Both the position numbers and the translations under genes were made by a program. This document shows, in pieces, positions 27,733 to 37,694 of a DNA stretch of 37,694 nucleotides. The DNA comes from Tissierellales bacterium. GTDB lineage: Bacteria; Bacillota; Clostridia; Tissierellales; Dethiosulfatibacteraceae. The notes beneath the pieces are model-generated. The model had not been told where the DNA came from and ran no database searches. It saw only the letters and a list, made by a program, of their open reading frames with translations. The stretch lies in NCBI GenBank assembly GCA_016938195.1, contig JAFGVC010000168.1:1-37694 (forward strand). Reading direction: 5' to 3'. Every line of letters starts with the position of its first letter. Within the stretch, counting starts at the first letter, position 1.

Positions 27733-28179
27733 ATGAATAAGGATTTCATTAGGGAAATGATTACAAAAGACGGAGAAATGGATATAGCTAAGGCAGCTAT
27801 ATTTATTTCTATGATTGAAAACAAATCCAGAGAATCCTTTGTAAGAAATTATATTGAAGAACTAGGATTTAAAGTTGTCATCACCGAAGTAGCCGGATCA
27901 GGCAGAGAGTTAAAAAAGAAAATTATTAACTCATGTGTTGGGGCTGCACTTAATTTAGAAGTGATTGATAAGGAGCCTCACCATATCCATGGGCTCATAC
28001 ATGCCGCCCAAGAAGCCGGTAGGGGTATGATGCTTGATATGCCTTTAGATGCCAATCTCCACATTAAAATAGCCATCGTGAGTAGTCCGCATTGGATTGC
28101 CGTCTCCATGTATGGAAATTCAGCTTATCATATTCTGTCTAACCACAGTCGTCTAGGACTTGGACATGTTAATATTTAA
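27733..28179 (+). CDS. hutP: HutP-family RNA-binding antiterminator
   Basis: The product is 148 residues, the same length as B. subtilis HutP, a hexamer that binds NAG-repeat RNA in the presence of L-histidine and Mg2+ and prevents terminator formation. The metal/histidine residues are retained: H86 and H90 in HGLIH (for H73 and H77) and H138 in SNHSRLGLGHVNI. HWIAVSMYG matches the DWIAVSLYG strand. Relative to B. subtilis it has extra N-terminal sequence and a shorter loop before HWIAV. I chose the ATG at 27733, after GGAAGAGAG, over a GTG at 27700. No hutH, hutU or hutI is in the window, so its target may differ. A likely one is the leader at 36846-36973. Confidence 0.9.
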   Translation: MNKDFIREMITKDGEMDIAKAAIFISMIENKSRESFVRNYIEELGFKVVITEVAGSGRELKKKIINSCVGAALNLEVIDKEPHHIHGLIHAAQEAGRGMMLDMPLDANLHIKIAIVSSPHWIAVSMYGNSAYHILSNHSRLGLGHVNI

Positions 28180-28280: not shown

Positions 28281-28377
28281 AAGTCTTGCATAATTGTTTG
28301 TAGCTATCAATTATTTAGGAGACCTAGAGTCATATGATGCATATGGGACACTTGTCATATGAGGAGTCAATAGTGCA
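28281..28377 (+). ncRNA. Putative cyclic-di-GMP-II riboswitch, copy 1
   Basis: The core reads ATGATG (28333 onward), GGGACACTTG, a variable arm, then AATAGTGCAACCGGCC. This matches, from memory, the conserved blocks of the class II c-di-GMP aptamer (GGGCACUUG...AGUAGUGCAACCG in the C. difficile type). A 5' hairpin, ATAATTG/CAATTAT, precedes it. TTTAGG (28314-28319) can pair with CCTGAG (28383-28388) as P1, which overlaps the terminator's 5' arm, so ligand binding and termination may compete. The AUGAUG-to-CACUUG segment is shorter than in the crystallised example, so class assignment is probable rather than certain. Confidence 0.75.
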
Positions 28378-28405
28378 ACCGGCCTGAGAGAGGGTCGGTT
28401 TTTTT
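28378..28405 (+). terminator. Riboswitch copy 1 expression-platform terminator
   Basis: ACCGGCC (28378-28384) pairs with GGTCGGT (28393-28399), seven pairs with one G-U, around TGAGAGAG, followed by seven T. Its 5' arm uses the aptamer's 3' conserved bases. Confidence 0.85.
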
Positions 28406-28469
28406 AATGGTGAATTAAAATGAAATTCAATCATTTTAAGGAAATACTCTTTAATGAATATGAATCGTG

Positions 28470-28566
28470 AAGTCTTGCATAATTGTTTGTAGTTATCAAT
28501 TATTTAGGAGACTTAGAATCATATGATGTATGTGGGACACTTGTCATATGAGGAGTCAATAGTGCA
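28470..28566 (+). ncRNA. Putative cyclic-di-GMP-II riboswitch, copy 2
   Basis: This is a second copy, 189 bp after the first. Over 137 bp (28281-28417 versus 28470-28606) I count five substitutions, all transitions and all in the 5' arm or the AUGAUG region. The conserved 3' core and terminator are identical. The tandem arrangement puts two sensors and two terminators in series on one transcript, which can sharpen the response or act as a two-input gate. Confidence 0.75.
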
Positions 28567-28594
28567 ACCGGCCTGAGAGAGGGTCGGTTTTTTT
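28567..28594 (+). terminator. Riboswitch copy 2 expression-platform terminator
   Basis: It is identical to the copy 1 terminator: ACCGGCC (28567-28573), GGTCGGT (28582-28588) and a seven-T tract. It stands about 130 bp before the ATG of the large surface-protein gene. Confidence 0.85.
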
Positions 28595-28722
28595 AATGGT
28601 GAATTAAGGAGGTGGTTTATATATTTTTAATAGATGCTTCACAGATATCACGGAGATAAAGTATTTTATGCGGTTATTGTTTAGAGACGGTTTGTTAACC
28701 GAAATTGAAAGGAGGTAACAGG

Positions 28723-31700
28723 ATGAAGATTAAGAGGCAATTGATGATTTTTGTGATTGTAACCACGCTGGTATTTAGTGTATTCTTCCAGATGCCTACA
28801 TACGCCGATGATGAAAATTTAGCTTTAGTCAATTATGTAGGTCCCGGAAGATACGAAACAAACCTGATGATTGTACAAGGAGGAGAGGTATTACAAAATT
28901 ATGAAGACGTTGGTACTGCAGCCATATGGAATACGCGCAATGAACTGTACATTTCACTGGAGGTTGAAGAAGGATGGGTCATTAAAGAAGTGATGGCATA
29001 TGTGGGTAACGGGGAAATACCAACCTCTGAATCAGGAAACCCATTGCCGGTGAGATTTCCTTATGGGGAAAAGCTTCGAAATGCTCAAACGACCTATCAA
29101 ATGTCTTTGAAGCTTGTTGAAGACCTTGATATCAGCTGGGGAATGCGGGACGAAGCAAAAAGGATGCCCAAAATTTCAGTCTGTGCAAGGGTGGAAAGAG
29201 AAAATTCTAAAAATGGAACACCTTATTTTGCTTGGGCTGAAGGAAATAATCAATTTGAAGTCAATTCAGGATGGTGGGTTAGATATGCTGTGGTTCATCC
29301 AAAAACAGGACATTTTATTGATTCTCCGGTAGACGGTGTAGAGTATGAAACCCCAACACACCGAGGCAAGACGGATGAAGGAGGCGCATTTGACTACATA
29401 CAAGGTGAGGATGTTAATCTGTATATCGGAGGTATTCATATTGGAACGGCAAGAGCCGGACATAAGATTACACCGTTGGATTTGGTCGGCACGACGGACA
29501 TCAACAATACCGCGGTCATTAACATGGCTGTGATGCTTCAGAGCTTTGATGAAGATGGTGAGCCTCATGCAGGGATAAAAATAACAAATGATACATCTGA
29601 GGCCTTGAACGAGTCTTTTGTAGAAATGGGACTAACGGAGATAGATTTTTATGACTCTGAACAGGTGAATTCTCTGATTGCGCTAACCGATCAAAAGCTT
29701 GGAGGAACTTTAAACATTGTTTCCAGAGAAGAAGCGAAGGATAATCTAGAAAAAGGTACTGGGAGCACCATTGTCAGGAAAAATGTATCTAAATCATCGG
29801 AATTTGAGAATACCAAAGCCAAGCTTGAATTAATGCCTTTATATGTGCCGGCACAAAAAGCCAATGGAGATCCGGTGACTTTGGAATATTATGAAACTGT
29901 TTTGGACCCCGTAACAGGTGAACCGACTGGAGAAGAGATTTTATTAGAAACCAGAACAATGGTTAAACCCCTTATTTCCTGCTACACTGAAGCGATTGGA
30001 GATACCGGAGCTGATGATATTGTGGCAGCTGTATCCCGGGATGAAGGAGAAACTTGGAAGACAACCAATATCTCTAAATCAGCCGATAAGTCATCTTTTA
30101 AACTAAAGGATGGAACGGATTTTCCGGGGGATACGCATAAACCACAAGTTAAGGTGAGTGGCAATTACATTTTAGCAGTTTGGACCTCCAAATTTGCCAA
30201 GACAGGAAAACCGACTTACGCTATCAAGATAAATGATGAAACGTCGGAGGATTACTATCCATATGACGACCCATACTATGAAGAAGACATTTGGGGAGTA
30301 TCCGGACCGCAAAGATCTGTCGACTATGCCGATATGGGTTTTCCGGATGTGGGCGAGCTTCCTTTTAGTGTGGTTTGGGCTTGTAGAGGAAAGATTGACG
30401 TTGAAACAGGAGAAATCACTTGGTATAAGCCTGAGCGATTAACCTCCGGGCGAAGAGATGCCAATCAGGTTATGATGAATGCCGTTGAAGGAGCTGGTTT
30501 TGCTATAGTTTGGCAGGAAGATCCGGAAGGACTAAGACCGGGTGAACAGGCAGGTCCCGGAGAAGGCTGGAGTGGAGCGACGACCAATCATAAAACAGAT
30601 ATTTGGTACTCATATTTAAAATGGGAGGATTTTGAAGCTATAGATGAGAATTTCGTGTCAAAAGGGGCTTCACAACATAAAGAAGACGAAGAGGAAGACG
30701 AAGAGGAAAGAGGAAGACCAAAAGCACTTGTACCTTTTAGACTTCCGGTAAGGTTGACGGATAATGATACACTCAATCTTGACAATATGAAAATAGATAC
30801 CACTAACATCAATTTGCCACAAACAGAATTGACTTGGGTCGATGTGGATTCGAGTACATTTTTACCTTTAATCGAGGATGAAAAGATGCAAGGTACGCAT
30901 CAATATGGTTATGTGGACCTAGCCCAATATTATCCTTACTATAATGGTCCTGAAATTTGCGATATGCTTTACTATGAAGTCAATCACCAAGGGGCGGATA
31001 AATATATAGCCATAACAGGAGATGGAAGGCTCATAGATGGCAATACAGGTGCTTCAAGACCAAATATTATGCTACAAAAATATACAAAAGCGGATGGCAG
31101 TATCAGTGCATGGGCAGCTATTTGCTATGAAGAAACAAAAGGAGTAGGTGCAGGGCCTCCTATGGATGAGGAATTAGATGCAATCGCATCAGTCACTACA
31201 TCATATTCTGAAGAAGAATTGGATGCCATGGCATCAGCGACGACATCAGATAGTGACGTCGCTGAATCCGGAGATGGTATTGGTAGCGGTGGCTCAGGAG
31301 AAGGAGGAAGCAGTGATGGTGTAGGCGCTCAAAGGGGTAAATATGCTTATGTTGCTGATTCAGGTAAGTTTGTTATTTACCATTCCTTCGACTTTGCACA
31401 ACCCGATTTGGTCAGCGCAGGCCACATTATCAATCCTCAGATTAAAATTGACTCTGAAGAAGAAATTGAATTTTATACCAGAGAAGATGGAACCTTGCCA
31501 GGTCTTGACGAATCTACAGGATTGCTTTATTTAACTGATGAAGACGGAAATATTCTGTATGATTGGGATGGTGTTACGCCGTTAGCGGCCTATGAAAATG
31601 CCAGAAGACCAAGAATGTTGATACAAGGCAAATCTGCAGCTATTGCAGGAAAACCGGCCGGTACAGACGGTACCGTCATGGTTATGCTGTATAAGATGGG

Positions 31701-33495
31701 TGAAGAAGGAAAAGGAAGGCCTTCAGATATCTTTATGCACAGATGGGAGGTTAGCTCTTTAGATAAGGGGAATCCATATGATATCAAATATATGTCACCG
31801 GATATCTATAATATCAGCAGTGTCACACCGGGAGACACCATTATCAACGAGAATCGATCGGAGTCTAGCAAGGGGGAAGGACTCAAAGTCTTAAATTGGA
31901 CACAGGATGTGACTAATTTAGATGATGATTCGTGGGAAAATCCTTATGATGACGCCAGAGCGCACAGGGGAATACTCAGAGGAGATATGCTGGCAATTGC
32001 ATTAGATTGGACACCAAACTGGGCTGCTTCAAGGAACGGAAACGATATTTATAATTTATATGTCAGACGATCATTTGATGGTGGCAAGACTTTTACGACC
32101 AATCCAGCAGGTACAGGTGTAACACACACCGATATTTTCAAAACCGGATTGGGTACAGGTCAAGGAAGTGAAGAAAGAGAAGAAGATTTGAAAGTGGAAG
32201 TTCAAACTTTCTATGAAGCCGGAGCATTTGAACCGATGAGAAATCTCTCGCATTTATCTAACAATAAAACTTCAGTCATTGAACCAAGACTTGTCGGAGG
32301 TCAGGGAACAATAGCGGGTTCACCATATCCTGAAGATGTTAGAAATGCTAAAGTTTTCTGGGTAACCTATGGAACATCAACCAACCCAGGTGATGATTCA
32401 ACAGAATTAAAAGAGCCCCTCGATTTGTATTATAGTTATACATCTGATTTTGGGGATACATTTTATGATATCACAAAGATAACTAACCCTGAGAGCAAGG
32501 GCAATCATCCGGGAGAAGAAAAAACAGTCTGGGATTGGTTAGCAAAGGATACTGGACAGAAGGTTGCGGCCCAAGCTGAATGTCAAATCAGGATGTCAGC
32601 AGATGGTTCAATATTCTATGCCGTATGGAACGAAACAGGGGATAACGGAAGCGATGTCATGTTCAGAAGAATTATACCTAGTGGAATGAAAATCCGCAGT
32701 ATTGTAGAAGTGATAGATGAAACCGCACCGGTTATTCAAGTTGAAGGCATTAATGATGGAGATATTATAAACGATGATATCACTTTAGAAGTTCGATTAA
32801 GTGAATTGGGAGTGTGGGAAGCTGAACTTGTTTCGAGTGACAGCACTAACCATTTCAATGATGAATTTACGATAGTGGCTGATCGCTCTAAGCGTGATTA
32901 CACATTAAAAGTGTCAGCAGAAGATCTGTCAGGAAATAAGAGCTACAAAGAGCTTTCTTTTACCGTAGATGGACAAGCTCCAAATATTAATGTGTTTGGA
33001 GTAGAAAAAAATGAACATGCACAAACAGATATTAAACTGCAAATCCATACATCAGGTGTTAAGGAGCACATCAAGCTATTAAAGGATGGAAAAGAGATTA
33101 ATACAACGAATTGGTCTTTGCTGACTGAAGAAGGAAACTATTATCTGGATGTTATTTCCGAAATCAACGGCTACATGGCTAGAAAGAACTTGGTGTTCAC
33201 AATAGACAGAACAGCGCCGAAAATTGTTTATAAAGGTGTTGAGGACGGAGGAATATACATAGGTAGCGTGAGACCAGAAGTGATTATTACGGATAATTTG
33301 TGTAAATCACTTCAAAGACTTGATATTAAGCTTAATGGACTTGATTACTTATCATCGACTCAGATATCTAGAGTGGGAGAATATACGTTATATGTATATG
33401 CTGTAGATAAAGCGGGTAATACAGCAGTTTCTGAAATTAATTTCAAAATTATGGCTGCTGAAACTGAAATTAGTTTACAAATGATGGAAGAGTAA
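28723..33495 (+). CDS. Giant exported surface protein with Asp-box (BNR) and Ig-like repeats, 1590 residues
   Basis: A signal peptide (MKIKRQLMIFVIV, cleaved after TYA near residue 30) starts the protein. Beta-propeller-like Asp-box motifs appear as SRDEGETW (438), SFDGGKTF (about 1117) and TSDFGDTF (about 1241). The central QEDPEGLRPG...GEGWSGA segment (about 598-620) resembles the 'choice-of-anchor O' family from memory. Around 816 there is a tandem pair of 14-15-residue repeats (EELDAIASVTTS, EELDAMASATTS) followed by a Gly/Ser linker. The last 260 residues hold three Ig-like modules (DETAPVIQVEG, VDGQAPNINVFG, IDRTAPKIVYKG). No catalytic residues or SLH domain are recognised. The ATG is seven bases after AAAGGAGG. 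Expression should depend on the tandem riboswitches upstream. Confidence 0.85.
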   Translation: MKIKRQLMIFVIVTTLVFSVFFQMPTYADDENLALVNYVGPGRYETNLMIVQGGEVLQNYEDVGTAAIWNTRNELYISLEVEEGWVIKEVMAYVGNGEIPTSESGNPLPVRFPYGEKLRNAQTTYQMSLKLVEDLDISWGMRDEAKRMPKISVCARVERENSKNGTPYFAWAEGNNQFEVNSGWWVRYAVVHPKTGHFIDSPVDGVEYETPTHRGKTDEGGAFDYIQGEDVNLYIGGIHIGTARAGHKITPLDLVGTTDINNTAVINMAVMLQSFDEDGEPHAGIKITNDTSEALNESFVEMGLTEIDFYDSEQVNSLIALTDQKLGGTLNIVSREEAKDNLEKGTGSTIVRKNVSKSSEFENTKAKLELMPLYVPAQKANGDPVTLEYYETVLDPVTGEPTGEEILLETRTMVKPLISCYTEAIGDTGADDIVAAVSRDEGETWKTTNISKSADKSSFKLKDGTDFPGDTHKPQVKVSGNYILAVWTSKFAKTGKPTYAIKINDETSEDYYPYDDPYYEEDIWGVSGPQRSVDYADMGFPDVGELPFSVVWACRGKIDVETGEITWYKPERLTSGRRDANQVMMNAVEGAGFAIVWQEDPEGLRPGEQAGPGEGWSGATTNHKTDIWYSYLKWEDFEAIDENFVSKGASQHKEDEEEDEEERGRPKALVPFRLPVRLTDNDTLNLDNMKIDTTNINLPQTELTWVDVDSSTFLPLIEDEKMQGTHQYGYVDLAQYYPYYNGPEICDMLYYEVNHQGADKYIAITGDGRLIDGNTGASRPNIMLQKYTKADGSISAWAAICYEETKGVGAGPPMDEELDAIASVTTSYSEEELDAMASATTSDSDVAESGDGIGSGGSGEGGSSDGVGAQRGKYAYVADSGKFVIYHSFDFAQPDLVSAGHIINPQIKIDSEEEIEFYTREDGTLPGLDESTGLLYLTDEDGNILYDWDGVTPLAAYENARRPRMLIQGKSAAIAGKPAGTDGTVMVMLYKMGEEGKGRPSDIFMHRWEVSSLDKGNPYDIKYMSPDIYNISSVTPGDTIINENRSESSKGEGLKVLNWTQDVTNLDDDSWENPYDDARAHRGILRGDMLAIALDWTPNWAASRNGNDIYNLYVRRSFDGGKTFTTNPAGTGVTHTDIFKTGLGTGQGSEEREEDLKVEVQTFYEAGAFEPMRNLSHLSNNKTSVIEPRLVGGQGTIAGSPYPEDVRNAKVFWVTYGTSTNPGDDSTELKEPLDLYYSYTSDFGDTFYDITKITNPESKGNHPGEEKTVWDWLAKDTGQKVAAQAECQIRMSADGSIFYAVWNETGDNGSDVMFRRIIPSGMKIRSIVEVIDETAPVIQVEGINDGDIINDDITLEVRLSELGVWEAELVSSDSTNHFNDEFTIVADRSKRDYTLKVSAEDLSGNKSYKELSFTVDGQAPNINVFGVEKNEHAQTDIKLQIHTSGVKEHIKLLKDGKEINTTNWSLLTEEGNYYLDVISEINGYMARKNLVFTIDRTAPKIVYKGVEDGGIYIGSVRPEVIITDNLCKSLQRLDIKLNGLDYLSSTQISRVGEYTLYVYAVDKAGNTAVSEINFKIMAAETEISLQMMEE

Positions 33496-33519
33496 GAATG
33501 TTATAAAAAGGAGGATAAA

Positions 33520-34713
33520 ATGTTTAGTAATTATGATTATAAAAAAGTATGGATATTGATTTTTGCAGCTGTGTTTGCTTTGACAATGTTGACCGGCAAT
33601 ACATTTGCAGACCCAGGTAGAGTTGTTTTGCCTCAGCAAAATGGACCGGAAGAAAATGAAACGTTTTTCTTTGCGGATGATTTAGTAGAAATAAAGCTTG
33701 AAATGAAAGATGATAAGATAAAAGATAATAATGGGAAGGCATTAGGTAAAGAAAAGCAAGAAGAGGAGATACCGGATGAGGCAGTCGAGGAGGAATTGCC
33801 TGAACTACCTGAAGAAGAGGAATTACCTGAGGAAGATTTACCTGACAATCCAGGACAAGGGCAAGGATCTGGTGGTAATGGACAAGGACAGGATGAGCCG
33901 GAAGACGATCCTGAGGAAGAACCGGAATTGAGCAGCGATTCATCACTGAGCATGATTTTTATCGGAGATAAGGCTTTGCCGGGATTTAGCCCTGAAAAGA
34001 CAGAATACACGTATCTATTACCAAAGGATACAGTGGTTTTGCCTGAAATTACTGCCGTACCGAATGATGAAAATGCATCAGTAAAATTCGGAAATATTGT
34101 TGAACTGCCTGGTACATTGGTTATTCAAGTAGCCGCACAGGATGGAAGCGAAACACACTACAAATTGAATTTATCAGTCAAAGGACTTCCTGAAGGAGAA
34201 ACCATTATCTTGCAGGATGAGTTAATCCCATTGGGTACACTGCAAATTTTTGGAATTTGGCTACCACCGGTCGAAGACAATTTTGTACTTGAGAAAAAAA
34301 GCACTAAAATTAGATTCTGGGTCAGTGAGCAGCTGCTCTATCCTGAAATATGGATTTTTGAGGTTGATGAGGGATACGAAGATATCATGAGCCAATCACT
34401 TGTGATTAAAATCGGAACGAGCGAGTTGAAATCAAGTACAGGTAACGGAAAGCACTCTAAATCAGTTGCGGAGAATGGAGAAGGAGGTTATTACAAATAT
34501 AACCTTAAAGGAAAGAATTTTCCTCAATTAGAAATGGATAAGCAATATGCCTTGGCTATTATGAACGAAGGTTGTGTTGTTACATTTGGAATTGACCAAC
34601 CGGCTATCCTTCATTTTACGATGGGAGAGGTAACGAATACAGTAATCAAGGAAAGAAATAAAACCTATAATGAATCTACTAGAAGATCCAATGTAGGAAG
34701 CAAGCAAGATTAA
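33520..34713 (+). CDS. Secreted protein with acidic Pro-rich linker and cadherin-like domain
   Basis: The product is 397 residues. The signal peptide (residues 10-30, ILIFAAVFALTMLTGNTFA) is followed by a Glu/Pro/Gly low-complexity linker (about 60-145; ELPELPEEEELPEEDLPDNP). A beta-sandwich then starts near residue 146 (LSMIFIGDKALPGFSPEKTEYTY), typical of cadherin-like PF12733-type modules. The C-terminal 170 residues are unassigned. It has no SLH domain or sortase signal. It lies 24 bp after the giant gene and before the SLH gene, each with AGGAGG. It is probably a partner in one surface assembly, but that is inferred only from the operon. Confidence 0.75.
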   Translation: MFSNYDYKKVWILIFAAVFALTMLTGNTFADPGRVVLPQQNGPEENETFFFADDLVEIKLEMKDDKIKDNNGKALGKEKQEEEIPDEAVEEELPELPEEEELPEEDLPDNPGQGQGSGGNGQGQDEPEDDPEEEPELSSDSSLSMIFIGDKALPGFSPEKTEYTYLLPKDTVVLPEITAVPNDENASVKFGNIVELPGTLVIQVAAQDGSETHYKLNLSVKGLPEGETIILQDELIPLGTLQIFGIWLPPVEDNFVLEKKSTKIRFWVSEQLLYPEIWIFEVDEGYEDIMSQSLVIKIGTSELKSSTGNGKHSKSVAENGEGGYYKYNLKGKNFPQLEMDKQYALAIMNEGCVVTFGIDQPAILHFTMGEVTNTVIKERNKTYNESTRRSNVGSKQD

Positions 34714-34785
34714 TCATATAAAATACCCCAAATTATGAATTTGACTAGCGTATTATGTAGTAGATTCATAAAGGAGGAATGTAAA

Positions 34786-36726
34786 ATGAGAAAAACTATG
34801 AAAATTGTTTTAGCAGTTATGTTGGTTTTGAGTCTTGCAATGATGCCTGTGACTGCGGTTGCCGGAGGACAAAGCGGATCAGCTCCGGGACAACAGAAGA
34901 CTGGATATGCGGAACAGCATGCATTTAGCCATTCTTTTAACGATATGACAGGTTATGATTGGGCTCAAAAGGCTGTACAGACAATGGCCAGAATGGGCAT
35001 CATAAAAGGCGAGGGTAACGGAAGATTTGCCCCATCGAGATCCGCAAAAGAAATTGAAGTTGTAGCAATGACACTAAGATTCTTAGGGTTGGAAGAAGAG
35101 CTTGATTTGGATGCCGAGCTTCCGAAATACTACAAAGGTACGGATCCGGATGAATGGATGATTCCATATATAGATGCTGCTTTGGAAGAAGGCATACTAT
35201 TACCGGAAGAAATGGATGACTTTAATCCCAATGCCGCTTCTTCAAGGTCGAGGGCCGCTGTTTACATGATTAGAGCCTTAGACATGGTAGAGGAAGCTGA
35301 AGATCACATGGATGAGGATTTACCGTTCAAGGACGCGGGTTCTATACCAGAAGAGCATGTAGGTTATGTTTATTTGGTTAATGAGCTTGGTCTAATGATT
35401 GGATATAATGATACTTTCCAACCGAACAAGCCTGTGACACGGGCTGAATTGGCAGTTCTTTTTGCAAGAATGGTCGCCATGACAGACACGGAGTACTCAT
35501 ATACAATGACTGGTCGCATTTATTATCTGGTTCTAACCGGAGATAAGATGATTGCCATTAAGAGTGGTAGTACTTATGCACAATTTGATTTAGATGATGA
35601 TGTTGTTGCATACGACTTGGATGACGAAGAAATAGAATTGGAAGATCTAAACTTGAATGACTTTGTCAAGCTTTACATTGTCAATGATTTAGTAGTACAA
35701 ATCGATCTCATTGAAGAAGGAACGGAAGTAAACAAAATATTGCTTAGAAGAACAGGTGAATTGATTGATATTACTTGGGATGACGATGACCTTGAGATTA
35801 TTGAGGTATTAGTCACTGACACTACAACACCTGAAGCCTTTGAAGTTGATGAGGATGTTGTCATTAAAGTCGAAGGAAACGAAGAAGATTTATTAGAAGC
35901 TCACATTGGGTTGGAAATTGTGTTCTATACATCGAATGATGTCGTATATAAAGTCTATGTTCACTATGATAAAATAGAAGGCATTTTAGACGAGCTTATT
36001 TATGACGACGAAGACCTTGTTGGGGCTGAGATTACACTTGATGGAGAAGAAGAAAGTGATTCGTATATGTTTGCTGAAGACATGCAAATATGTATCAATG
36101 AAGTTGATTCGGACCTTGAAGATTTAGAAGCACTCGATTTTGAAGATGATATTGTCTATGAAGTCAATGCAAAGCTTTTAGGAGACGGAACGGTCATCAA
36201 TTTGTGTGTCAACTTTGAAGGACCTGAATTAGCAGAAGGAACAGGCGAACTGACGGATATCACTTGGGAAGATGATGTCGTTACTGAGCTAGAAATTTTA
36301 GTCACAGATGCGACTGAATCCGAAACATTTGAAGTAGATGAAGATGCCGTATTTAAAGTTGAGGGTGTTGAGACTGATTTGACTGAAGCACACGTTGGAT
36401 TGGAATTGACTTTCTATACATCGGATGATGTGATTTATGAAGTGGATTTAGAATATGATGAGCTTGAAGGCGTCTTAAATGCATTGGTGTATGAGGATGA
36501 AGACTTAATAGGACTTGATATTACACCTGAAGGAGAAACTGAGGGAGAAGATTATCTCTTTGCAGAAGGTGTAATCCTATTCATCAATGAAGTAGAATCC
36601 GAGCTTGAAGATCTTGAGGACCTTGATTTTGAAAGCGAAATAGAATATGAAGTGAGTGCATCCCTTCTAGGTAACGGAGAATTGATTATTGTTTCCATCG
36701 ATTTCGACGAACCGGAAGAAGAATAA
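34786..36726 (+). CDS. SLH-anchored surface protein with two long acidic repeats
   Basis: The product is 646 residues. The signal peptide (IVLAVMLVLSLAMMPVTAVAGG) is followed by three SLH domains at about 45-235, of which only the third keeps TRAE (PVTRAELAVLFARM). Residues 324-486 and 487-646 are two tandem repeats of about 160 residues that open GELIDITWDDDD and GELTDITWEDDV and share FEVDED, GLE-FYTS and DLEDL-LDFE phrases. They are extremely rich in Asp and Glu with almost no Lys or Arg, suggesting calcium binding or salt-responsive packing. The ATG at 34786 follows AAAGGAGG. An earlier ATG at 34735 lacks a site. It is the only SLH protein of the three-gene set, so it may anchor the others. 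A strong terminator follows. Confidence 0.85.
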   Translation: MRKTMKIVLAVMLVLSLAMMPVTAVAGGQSGSAPGQQKTGYAEQHAFSHSFNDMTGYDWAQKAVQTMARMGIIKGEGNGRFAPSRSAKEIEVVAMTLRFLGLEEELDLDAELPKYYKGTDPDEWMIPYIDAALEEGILLPEEMDDFNPNAASSRSRAAVYMIRALDMVEEAEDHMDEDLPFKDAGSIPEEHVGYVYLVNELGLMIGYNDTFQPNKPVTRAELAVLFARMVAMTDTEYSYTMTGRIYYLVLTGDKMIAIKSGSTYAQFDLDDDVVAYDLDDEEIELEDLNLNDFVKLYIVNDLVVQIDLIEEGTEVNKILLRRTGELIDITWDDDDLEIIEVLVTDTTTPEAFEVDEDVVIKVEGNEEDLLEAHIGLEIVFYTSNDVVYKVYVHYDKIEGILDELIYDDEDLVGAEITLDGEEESDSYMFAEDMQICINEVDSDLEDLEALDFEDDIVYEVNAKLLGDGTVINLCVNFEGPELAEGTGELTDITWEDDVVTELEILVTDATESETFEVDEDAVFKVEGVETDLTEAHVGLELTFYTSDDVIYEVDLEYDELEGVLNALVYEDEDLIGLDITPEGETEGEDYLFAEGVILFINEVESELEDLEDLDFESEIEYEVSASLLGNGELIIVSIDFDEPEEE

Positions 36727-36792: not shown

Positions 36793-36821
36793 TTGACAAT
36801 AAAATATGAGCATGTTAAGTT
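36793..36821 (+). promoter_or_regulatory. Sigma-A promoter of the CoA-transferase leader
   Basis: A perfect TTGACA (36793-36798), a 17-bp spacer and TAAGTT (36816-36821) predict a start near 36828 and a 5' leader of about 200 nt before the TTG at 37026. Confidence 0.75.
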
Positions 36822-36845
36822 ATTAATTGAAGCAACAACGGCTCA

Positions 36846-36936
36846 AAGAGTTGAGCCGATAGAGTATAGAGTGTCGTTATAAATGATGTAACATTTAATA
36901 ATCATGCTTGCATAGAGGATAGAGAATAGAGAACAG
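36846..36936 (+). promoter_or_regulatory. Putative HutP-binding leader RNA: two clusters of NAG triplets at 7-nt spacing
   Basis: Cluster 1 has AAG (36846), GAG (36853), TAG (36860) and TAG (36867), each followed by four other bases. Cluster 2 has TAG (36913), TAG (36920), TAG (36927) and CAG (36934). Exact NAG-N4-NAG phasing in two separated clusters is the known HutP recognition pattern. Part of cluster 1 lies in a perfect hairpin, CGGCTCAA/TTGAGCCG (36839-36858). The last CAG of cluster 2 lies in the 5' arm of the following terminator. The match to HutP is my inference. Confidence 0.6.
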
Positions 36937-36973
36937 GCGAATGGAAGATCCATTTTCTTGTTTTTGTTTTTTT
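36931..36973 (+). terminator. Leader attenuator (terminator) before the CoA-transferase gene
   Basis: AATGGA (36940-36945) and TCCATT (36949-36954) pair around AGA. Further pairs outside (36931-36939 with 36955-36963, including G-U pairs and one mismatch) lengthen the stem. A broken T-tract follows to 36973. It lies inside the leader, so most transcription may stop here unless the 5' arm is held open. Confidence 0.6.
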
Positions 36974-37025
36974 GAATCTAGTTTTGTGGTATTAAATCCG
37001 TTAATTAAATGAAGGAGGTGATCGA

Positions 37026-37694
37026 TTGGGCGTATTGAATGGCATCAAAATTCTGGATTTAACTCAGGGACTCTCAGGACCATACTGTACTATGATTTTA
37101 GGAGACATGGGAGCAGAGGTTATTAAAATTGAAAAAATCAATAATGGTGATGACTCAAGAGCTATAGGACCATTTATCAATGAAGAAAGTGGTTATTTCA
37201 TGAGTGTGAACCGAAATAAGAAGAGCCTTGCCATTGATCTGGGTAAAAAGAAAGGCAAAAAAATACTGAAAGATCTAGTGATGGTATCAGACGTACTGGT
37301 TGAGAATTATAAGCCAAGCACGATGGAAAAACTGGGACTCGATTATGAATCAATCAAGACAGTTAATCCCAACATTATCTATTGCTCTATATCAGGATAT
37401 GGACAAGATGGTCCCTTGAGGGATCGACCAGCGTATGACGCAGTTATTCAAGCAATGGCTGGATTGATGAGCATCACAGGTCAAGAGCATGGCAAACCGA
37501 CACGTGTTGGCGCTCCCATTGGCGATTTGACATCGTCTTTATATAGTGTGATTGCGATATTGGGGGCGTTATATAAAAAGAAAGAAACCGGAAAAGGTGA
37601 AAGAATTGACATATCGATCTTAGATAGCCAAGTATCAATCCTTGAAAATGCAATCATGAGATACAACACAACAGGCGAGATTCCTGAACCCATC
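37026..37694 (+). CDS. CaiB/BaiF (class III) CoA-transferase, 3' end cut by the window edge
   Basis: The first 223 residues are present and open at the right edge; full proteins are about 400. The start is TTG, five to six bases after AAGGAGGTG. LNGIKILDLTQGLSGPYCTMILGDMGAEVIKIE is the family N terminus (in two parts: LNGIKILDLTQ and GPYCTMILGDMGAEVIKIE). NRNKKSLAIDL, LVENYKP and the catalytic Asp in PAYDAVIQAMAG (D138, equivalent to Asp169 of formyl-CoA transferase) are intact. The enzyme moves CoA between carboxylic acids. In Clostridia relatives serve amino-acid fermentation and carnitine, oxalate or aromatic metabolism; the substrate here is unknown. A long leader with a terminator and HutP-like sites precedes it. 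Confidence 0.9.
   Translation, partial: MGVLNGIKILDLTQGLSGPYCTMILGDMGAEVIKIEKINNGDDSRAIGPFINEESGYFMSVNRNKKSLAIDLGKKKGKKILKDLVMVSDVLVENYKPSTMEKLGLDYESIKTVNPNIIYCSISGYGQDGPLRDRPAYDAVIQAMAGLMSITGQEHGKPTRVGAPIGDLTSSLYSVIAILGALYKKKETGKGERIDISILDSQVSILENAIMRYNTTGEIPEPI

Follow-up and report, generated by a model that had tools for sequence, protein, structure and literature searches.

To our knowledge, HutP has been known only as the histidine sensor of a single operon of Bacillus, where it switches on histidine breakdown. In Bacillus subtilis, HutP antiterminates transcription of hut, and its target RNA carries two clusters of NAG triplets, three triplets in each, approximately 20 nt apart (PMC7430163). 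Here we analyze a leader with a related architecture located upstream of a gene outside histidine utilization, in a 37,694-nucleotide stretch of a Tissierellales draft genome (assembly GCA_016938195.1, contig JAFGVC010000168.1; hereinafter, the window). The segment 36822-37025 is very probably the leader of a CoA-transferase operon that is subject to transcription antitermination by a HutP paralog, which we denote HutP2, with a Mg2+-chelated ligand as the signal and with the operon running on into a Na+ pump. The core of the original prediction, namely that the HutP protein encoded in the window regulates this leader and thus a target other than hut, is strongly supported by comparison with related genomes, through the adjacency of hutP2 to the leader in three relatives and the co-occurrence of HutP2 with the leader.

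Organization of the leader

Upstream, the leader is bordered by an SLH-domain gene that ends at 36726, and downstream by the TTG start codon of the CoA-transferase gene (37026); it contains the following elements.

36793 to 36821, + strand: sigma-A-like promoter, TTGACA-17-TAAGTT, read directly from the sequence, with TTGACA and the spacing kept in four leaders
36846 to 36869, + strand: NAG cluster 1 (AAG, GAG, TAG, TAG), a period-7 run
36913 to 36936, + strand: NAG cluster 2 (TAG, TAG, TAG, CAG), a period-7 run in the presumed antiterminator loop
36932 to 36972, + strand: intrinsic terminator, hairpin 36932-36962 followed by a U-tract to 36972 (12 pairs in all four genomes; fold z-scores)
37026 to 37694, + strand: CoA-transferase family III gene, with its 3' end past the window (PF02515, E 2.9e-87)

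The promoter boxes (36793-36798 and 36816-36821) are separated by a 17-nt spacer. The triplets of cluster 1 start at 36846, 36853, 36860 and 36867 and those of cluster 2 at 36913, 36920, 36927 and 36934, each step being 7 nt. The promoter, the exact positions of both clusters, the hairpin with a T-tract that takes in the last NAG (CAG at 36934-36936, inside the 5' strand of the terminator) and the CoA-transferase gene that follows had all been anticipated, and each was recovered here. Cluster 2 can also be read in an alternative register, two bases later, with GAG at 36915, 36922 and 36929. Cluster 1 is less regular than cluster 2 and is partly located within a hairpin; a helix closing it was sought and rejected because the candidates, AACG/CGUU in the window and CAAAAAG/CUUUUUG in L004, are weak and inconsistent between leaders. 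A search of Rfam returned no family for the CoA-transferase leader, the matches being to c-di-GMP-II riboswitches in the window and to a T-box elsewhere.

Orthologous leaders were identified in four genomes from three genera of one bacterial family. The close relatives reached with the CoA-transferase query are Clostridiales MAG 38_11 (L004, also L115), Dethiosulfatibacter aminovorans DSM 17477 (L005, also L116) and Tissierellia MAG CSBr16_49 (L006, also L117), and in all three a gene for a 148-aa HutP-family protein is located directly 5' of the leader and CoA-transferase gene. In a fifth genome (G020), this hutP gene is likewise present, followed by the first part of the leader, within which the contig ends. 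A covariance model of cluster 2 and the terminator (R2, 69 positions) matched G000, G002, G055 and G060 once each, at 88-94 bits. It retrieved no leader from G020, whose contig stops inside it, from G034, G046 and G066, drafts of 68-82 % completeness in which HutP2 was not found, or from G112 and G009, which encode the related HutP4 proteins considered below. Thus, the leader is seen in four of the five HutP2 genomes, the fifth being cut off inside it, and in none of the three family members without HutP2. The next R2 matches (32-34 bits), inspected as candidate further targets in the same genomes (L172, L236, L237 and L238), turned out to be plain terminators without NAG arrays and were discarded.

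HutP2, a paralog of canonical HutP

27733 to 28179, + strand: hutP2, encoding a HutP-family RNA-binding protein of 148 aa, the presumed antiterminator (PF09021, 115 bits)

The annotation of this gene as hutP holds: the protein matches PF09021 over residues 18-145 with a score far above the cut-off of 25 bits, and is 79-84 % identical to the leader-adjacent HutP2 of the relatives. The genome encodes a second, canonical HutP on contig C95, which matches the solved HutP structures (E 5e-39) and whose neighbors, named by eye from their sequences, we take to be hutH, hutI and a cyclodeaminase gene. HutP2 is only about 22 % identical to this protein and scores 23.3 bits against the HutP equivalog model of NCBIfam (PRK03065), for which the cut-off is 155. 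Its neighborhood showed no linkage to hut; the adjacent genes are fabK-like, pgsA and DUF2177 genes and, in the relatives, also the CoA-transferase leader. In the phylogenetic tree, HutP2 and two HutP4 proteins form a clade of their own (support 0.987) next to a canonical HutP clade (0.957), and by these sequence criteria HutP2 is a separate subfamily, paralogous to canonical HutP. AlphaFold2 modeled HutP2 with moderate confidence (mean pLDDT 66.8), and the best PDB matches found for the model with Foldseek are HutP structures (E 7.7e-4; TM approximately 0.38). Beyond the family, a search of 391 genomes of the class gave a best E value of 2.4e-7, and such matches belong to other HutP groups.

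The three histidines of B. subtilis HutP that we take to be the Mg2+ ligands, H73, H77 and H138, have aligned counterparts in HutP2 (H86, H90 and H138, respectively). The segment opposite R88, E90 and R98, presumably the histidine-binding (side-chain pocket) residues of the B. subtilis protein, is shorter by about four residues and contains no matching residues in the alignments. With the three histidines retained and this segment unmatched, a metal-bound ligand appears likely, and histidine less so; the ligand of HutP2 is, therefore, probably not histidine.

Adjacent in the three relatives, hutP2 and the leader are separated in the window by about 8.6 kb that encompass surface-protein genes and two c-di-GMP-II riboswitches. 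Both arrays are retained in the window despite this island, as would be expected for trans action of HutP2. As to the island itself, the riboswitches are arranged in tandem (28309-28582) upstream of the gene for a 1596-aa choice-of-anchor O surface protein, and the surface-protein genes span 28705-36726, from the choice-of-anchor O gene to a later SLH-domain protein gene.

Because both HutP proteins are encoded in the same genome, and because the canonical hut leader of this genome contains a similar helix-closed NAG array that would make cross-recognition possible, the regulator might instead be the canonical, histidine-responsive HutP of C95, in which case the hut regulon would extend to the CoA-transferase operon and histidine would switch it on. 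We consider this unlikely, given that the leader adjoins HutP2 rather than canonical HutP in the three relatives and that the hut genes have a canonical leader of their own. Furthermore, G034 and G046 encode canonical HutP without HutP2, and no such leader was found in these drafts, which are incomplete (82 % and 77 %, respectively).

Mutually exclusive helices

36906 to 36910, + strand: 5' strand of the presumed antiterminator helix, GCUUG, kept in all four leaders and pairing with 36934-36938
36934 to 36938, + strand: 3' strand of the presumed antiterminator helix, CAGGC, of which 36934-36937 are shared with the 5' strand of the terminator

Immediately ahead of cluster 2, GCUUG offers an alternative pairing partner for the terminator 5' strand, which reads AACAAG in the relatives and AACAGG in the window. 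The resulting GCUUG/CARGC helix encloses cluster 2 and is 100 % paired in all four leaders, compared with 20-42 % when the partner of GCUUG is slid by 1-3 columns; the terminator, too, is fully paired in all four. Judged from the shared strand, the two structures are mutually exclusive. In each of the four leaders, forcing the antiterminator costs 7-14 kcal/mol relative to the terminator fold, so the unassisted state should be off. The HutP2 antiterminator helix differs among the four leaders by a single one-sided change (U-A to U-G) and hence shows no covariation of its own.

The same arrangement recurs in canonical hut leaders. Those located between hutP and hutH in the same genome (L121), in its relatives and in Bacillaceae follow the pattern helix, one base, NAG-N4/5-NAG-N4/5-NAG, one base, helix, and the 3' strand of the helix is the start of the terminator. 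Among 18 representative hut units, selected in part for pairing, the helix is 96.7 % paired, and shifting the partner by 1-3 columns in the 5' or 3' direction lowers this value to 50-66 % or 19-57 %, respectively. Since pairing was a selection criterion, the stronger argument comes from covariation: three of the five pairs are changed on both sides, with GACCC/GGGUC and GCCC/GGGC found beside GCCU/AGGC. The helix-to-NAG junctions are 2-4 and 2-3 nt long in the HutP2 leaders, compared with 1 and 1 in the hut leaders. We do not present the hut helix as a new discovery, an idea that was dropped because the title of Oda et al. 2004 (cited in PMC12456014) already speaks of 'hut antiterminator RNA'.

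Two further features of the canonical leaders were noticed in passing. Several Bacillaceae hut leaders (L193-L217) have NAG triplets spaced by 8 nt instead of 7 nt in the same closed loop. In addition, an extra NAG3 array with 7-nt spacing precedes the start codon of canonical hutP in 8 of the 38 loci checked (e.g. L168-L171), suggesting autoregulation.

We propose the following scheme for the CoA-transferase leader. When active HutP2 is lacking, the nascent RNA would fold into the more stable terminator (36932-36962), and transcription would stop. A Mg2+-chelated ligand would activate HutP2, which would then bind both NAG3 arrays; on cluster 2, it would hold the ends of the array together and so favor the enclosing GCUUG/CAGGC helix. 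Formation of this helix would remove the 5' strand of the terminator, allowing RNA polymerase to read on. The switch would thereby turn on energy-conserving decarboxylation of a dicarboxylate (succinate to propionate in this family, which possesses methylmalonyl-CoA mutase).

The direction of control is not visible in the sequence, and the HutP3 leaders described below, in which phased GUAG lies over the start codon, suggest that some HutP relatives repress translation. HutP2 could accordingly bind and repress, with RNA binding or wrapping favoring termination or blocking elongation until the ligand releases it. This reversal seems quite improbable: the helix that loops out cluster 2 takes up the terminator 5' strand, and the last CAG of the cluster (36934-36936) falls within that strand, such that binding should oppose the terminator; moreover, the HutP precedent is antitermination (PMC7430163).

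Conservation of the NAG phase

Across the entire window, the + strand has no period-7 NAG run of four or more triplets other than the two leader clusters. Runs of four at periods 4, 6 and 9 occur once or twice each in the 37.7 kb, so a single NAG run is unremarkable, and it is the pair within one leader that constitutes the signal; for the window leader, dinucleotide shuffles yield two runs of three or more triplets with p of about 0.005. All four complete leaders contain exactly two NAG runs (at least three triplets) at period 7, and none of the four contains two runs at any other period from 4 to 11. The shuffles give p values of 0.002 to 0.05 per leader and a product of about 1e-8 that ignores the relatedness of the four; because these leaders come from three related genera, the corrected significance is smaller. 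Three triplets per cluster are common to all four genomes. As the original prediction proposed to check, the 7-nt phase is kept, and not lost in any of the relatives, although the spacers and the linker between the clusters vary: the clusters start 67-71 nt apart, and the gap between them is 43 nt in the window and 50-54 nt in the relatives. The TTGACA box and the 17-bp promoter spacing are the same in all four genomes. The view that the NAG runs are a roleless by-product of short tandem AUAGAG-like repeats, next to an ordinary terminator or attenuator under other control, draws on the low complexity and partly tandem nature of the clusters and on the frequency of single period-7 runs by chance (mean 0.1-0.4 per shuffled leader), but is very hard to reconcile with the paired runs at this period alone, the constancy of phase amid varying spacers and the directly adjacent HutP gene in three genomes.

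The downstream operon

Downstream of the CoA-transferase gene, D. aminovorans and CSBr16_49 have genes that encode a methylmalonyl-CoA-decarboxylase-type alpha subunit (916 bits against TIGR01117, below its cut-off of 999), an OadG-family subunit, a biotin carrier and a Na+-pump beta subunit (above the TIGR01109 cut-off). The draft genome to which the window belongs yielded no mmdA gene. In G000, G002 and G020 alike, the contig breaks off at or close to this part of the locus, and loss of a conserved gene during metagenome assembly is, therefore, the likely cause, so that the operon would continue in the window genome as it does in the relatives. Methylmalonyl-CoA mutase is present in all five HutP2 genomes, which fits decarboxylation from succinate to propionate. 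The operon probably encodes a dicarboxylate CoA-transferase together with a Na+-pumping decarboxylase; the CoA-transferase reached no equivalog cut-off that would specify its substrate.

A second instance of this association comes from G112, where a HutP4 gene is located inside an operon with the same Na+-pump decarboxylase subunits as in the HutP2 relatives (L192, L118). We take the other genes of this operon, judging from their sequences, to encode a CoA-transferase III, a MadL/MadM-like transporter and an M42 peptidase. Additional membrane-protein genes lie beside the MadL/MadM-like ones. No methylmalonyl-CoA mutase was found in G112, and no clear NAG array was detected ahead of its HutP4-containing CoA-transferase operon. 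The operons of the HutP2 relatives and of G112 thus tie the HutP2/4 clade to a dicarboxylate CoA-transferase and a Na+-decarboxylase in two bacterial families.

Other branches of the PF09021 family

PF09021 proteins are encoded in 59 of the 199 genomes of the order and in 127 of the 391 genomes of the class, and HutP4 relatives in two of 249 genomes of the order. The PF09021 loci that we looked at belong mostly to two further groups, HutP3 and HutP5, in both of which the metal-ligand histidines were not found at the aligned positions. HutP3 is encoded directly 5' of TrpX-type ABC transporter genes in Clostridia (L084-L113, L120, L146). The HutP3 leaders are rich in GUAG repeated every 8 nt (82 pairs at this distance, followed in frequency by 24 pairs at distance 16), most of them have GUAG triplets over the start codon as well (e.g. 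L108:1900-2060, GGUAGcAUGGUAG), and in many cases there is no terminator. Perhaps, HutP3 represents a second HutP system that acts on translation, and tryptophan or tyrosine may be its ligand. HutP5 genes are found 5' of the genes for aroH chorismate mutase and cytidylate kinase in Clostridia (L183-L190, e.g. L185:1181-1971). At a few HutP5 loci, GUAG-N4-G(U/C)AG-like motifs occur near the aroH start. No earlier description of the HutP2 leader system, HutP3 or HutP5 was found in the literature searched, which comprised only a minority of subscription journals.

Taken more broadly, HutP could be one branch of a Bacillota family of operon-specific RNA-binding switches, with at least three other branches, HutP2/4 (CoA-transferase/Na+-decarboxylase), HutP3 (tryptophan-type ABC transporters) and HutP5 (chorismate mutase), that sense different small molecules. 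At least two of these, HutP2 and HutP3, would read NAG arrays of their own spacing, and the ligand of HutP2 would be a compound other than histidine, perhaps a Mg2+-chelated dicarboxylate or a related amino acid. We regard the arguments for and against this generalization as evenly balanced.

Comparison with known systems

Very probably, judging by the leader, its partner gene and their distribution, a HutP relative switches on an operon other than hut via its binding triplets in a leader RNA. A dedicated HutP paralog with its own phased leader ahead of an energy-metabolism operon would be a case of reuse of a protein-RNA system, and the findings as a whole suggest a larger family of RNA-binding metabolic switches, with HutP as one of its branches. 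HutP and HutP2 form natural pairs in which the evolution of ligand specificity and NAG spacing could be followed, and the leader offers a handle on the control of Na+-pumping decarboxylases in amino-acid-fermenting Clostridia. The HutP2 leaders and those of the two further HutP groups provide directly testable material.

Among phased-triplet regulators, the trp RNA-binding attenuation protein (TRAP) resembles HutP in being an amino-acid-activated oligomer that wraps RNA via phased NAG triplets; however, TRAP has an unrelated fold, recognizes more repeats at a shorter spacing and causes termination. The HutP3 group shares with HutP2 a PF09021 protein encoded directly 5' of a leader with phased (G)UAG, but differs in the 8-nt phase, in the placement of the triplets over the ribosome-binding site and start codon, in the many leaders without a terminator and in the metal-ligand histidines, which are not at the aligned positions. 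The closest counterpart is the B. subtilis HutP/hut system, with which the HutP2 system has in common a HutP-family protein that has the three metal-ligand histidines, two NAG clusters, a helix that closes a NAG3 loop in competition with the terminator, and a terminator just 5' of the first regulated gene. Unlike B. subtilis HutP, HutP2 belongs to a separate clade and does not have residues matching R88, E90 and R98; its clusters are 43-54 nt apart instead of 20, with junctions of 2-4 nt instead of 1, and its apparent target is a CoA-transferase/Na+-decarboxylase operon rather than hut.
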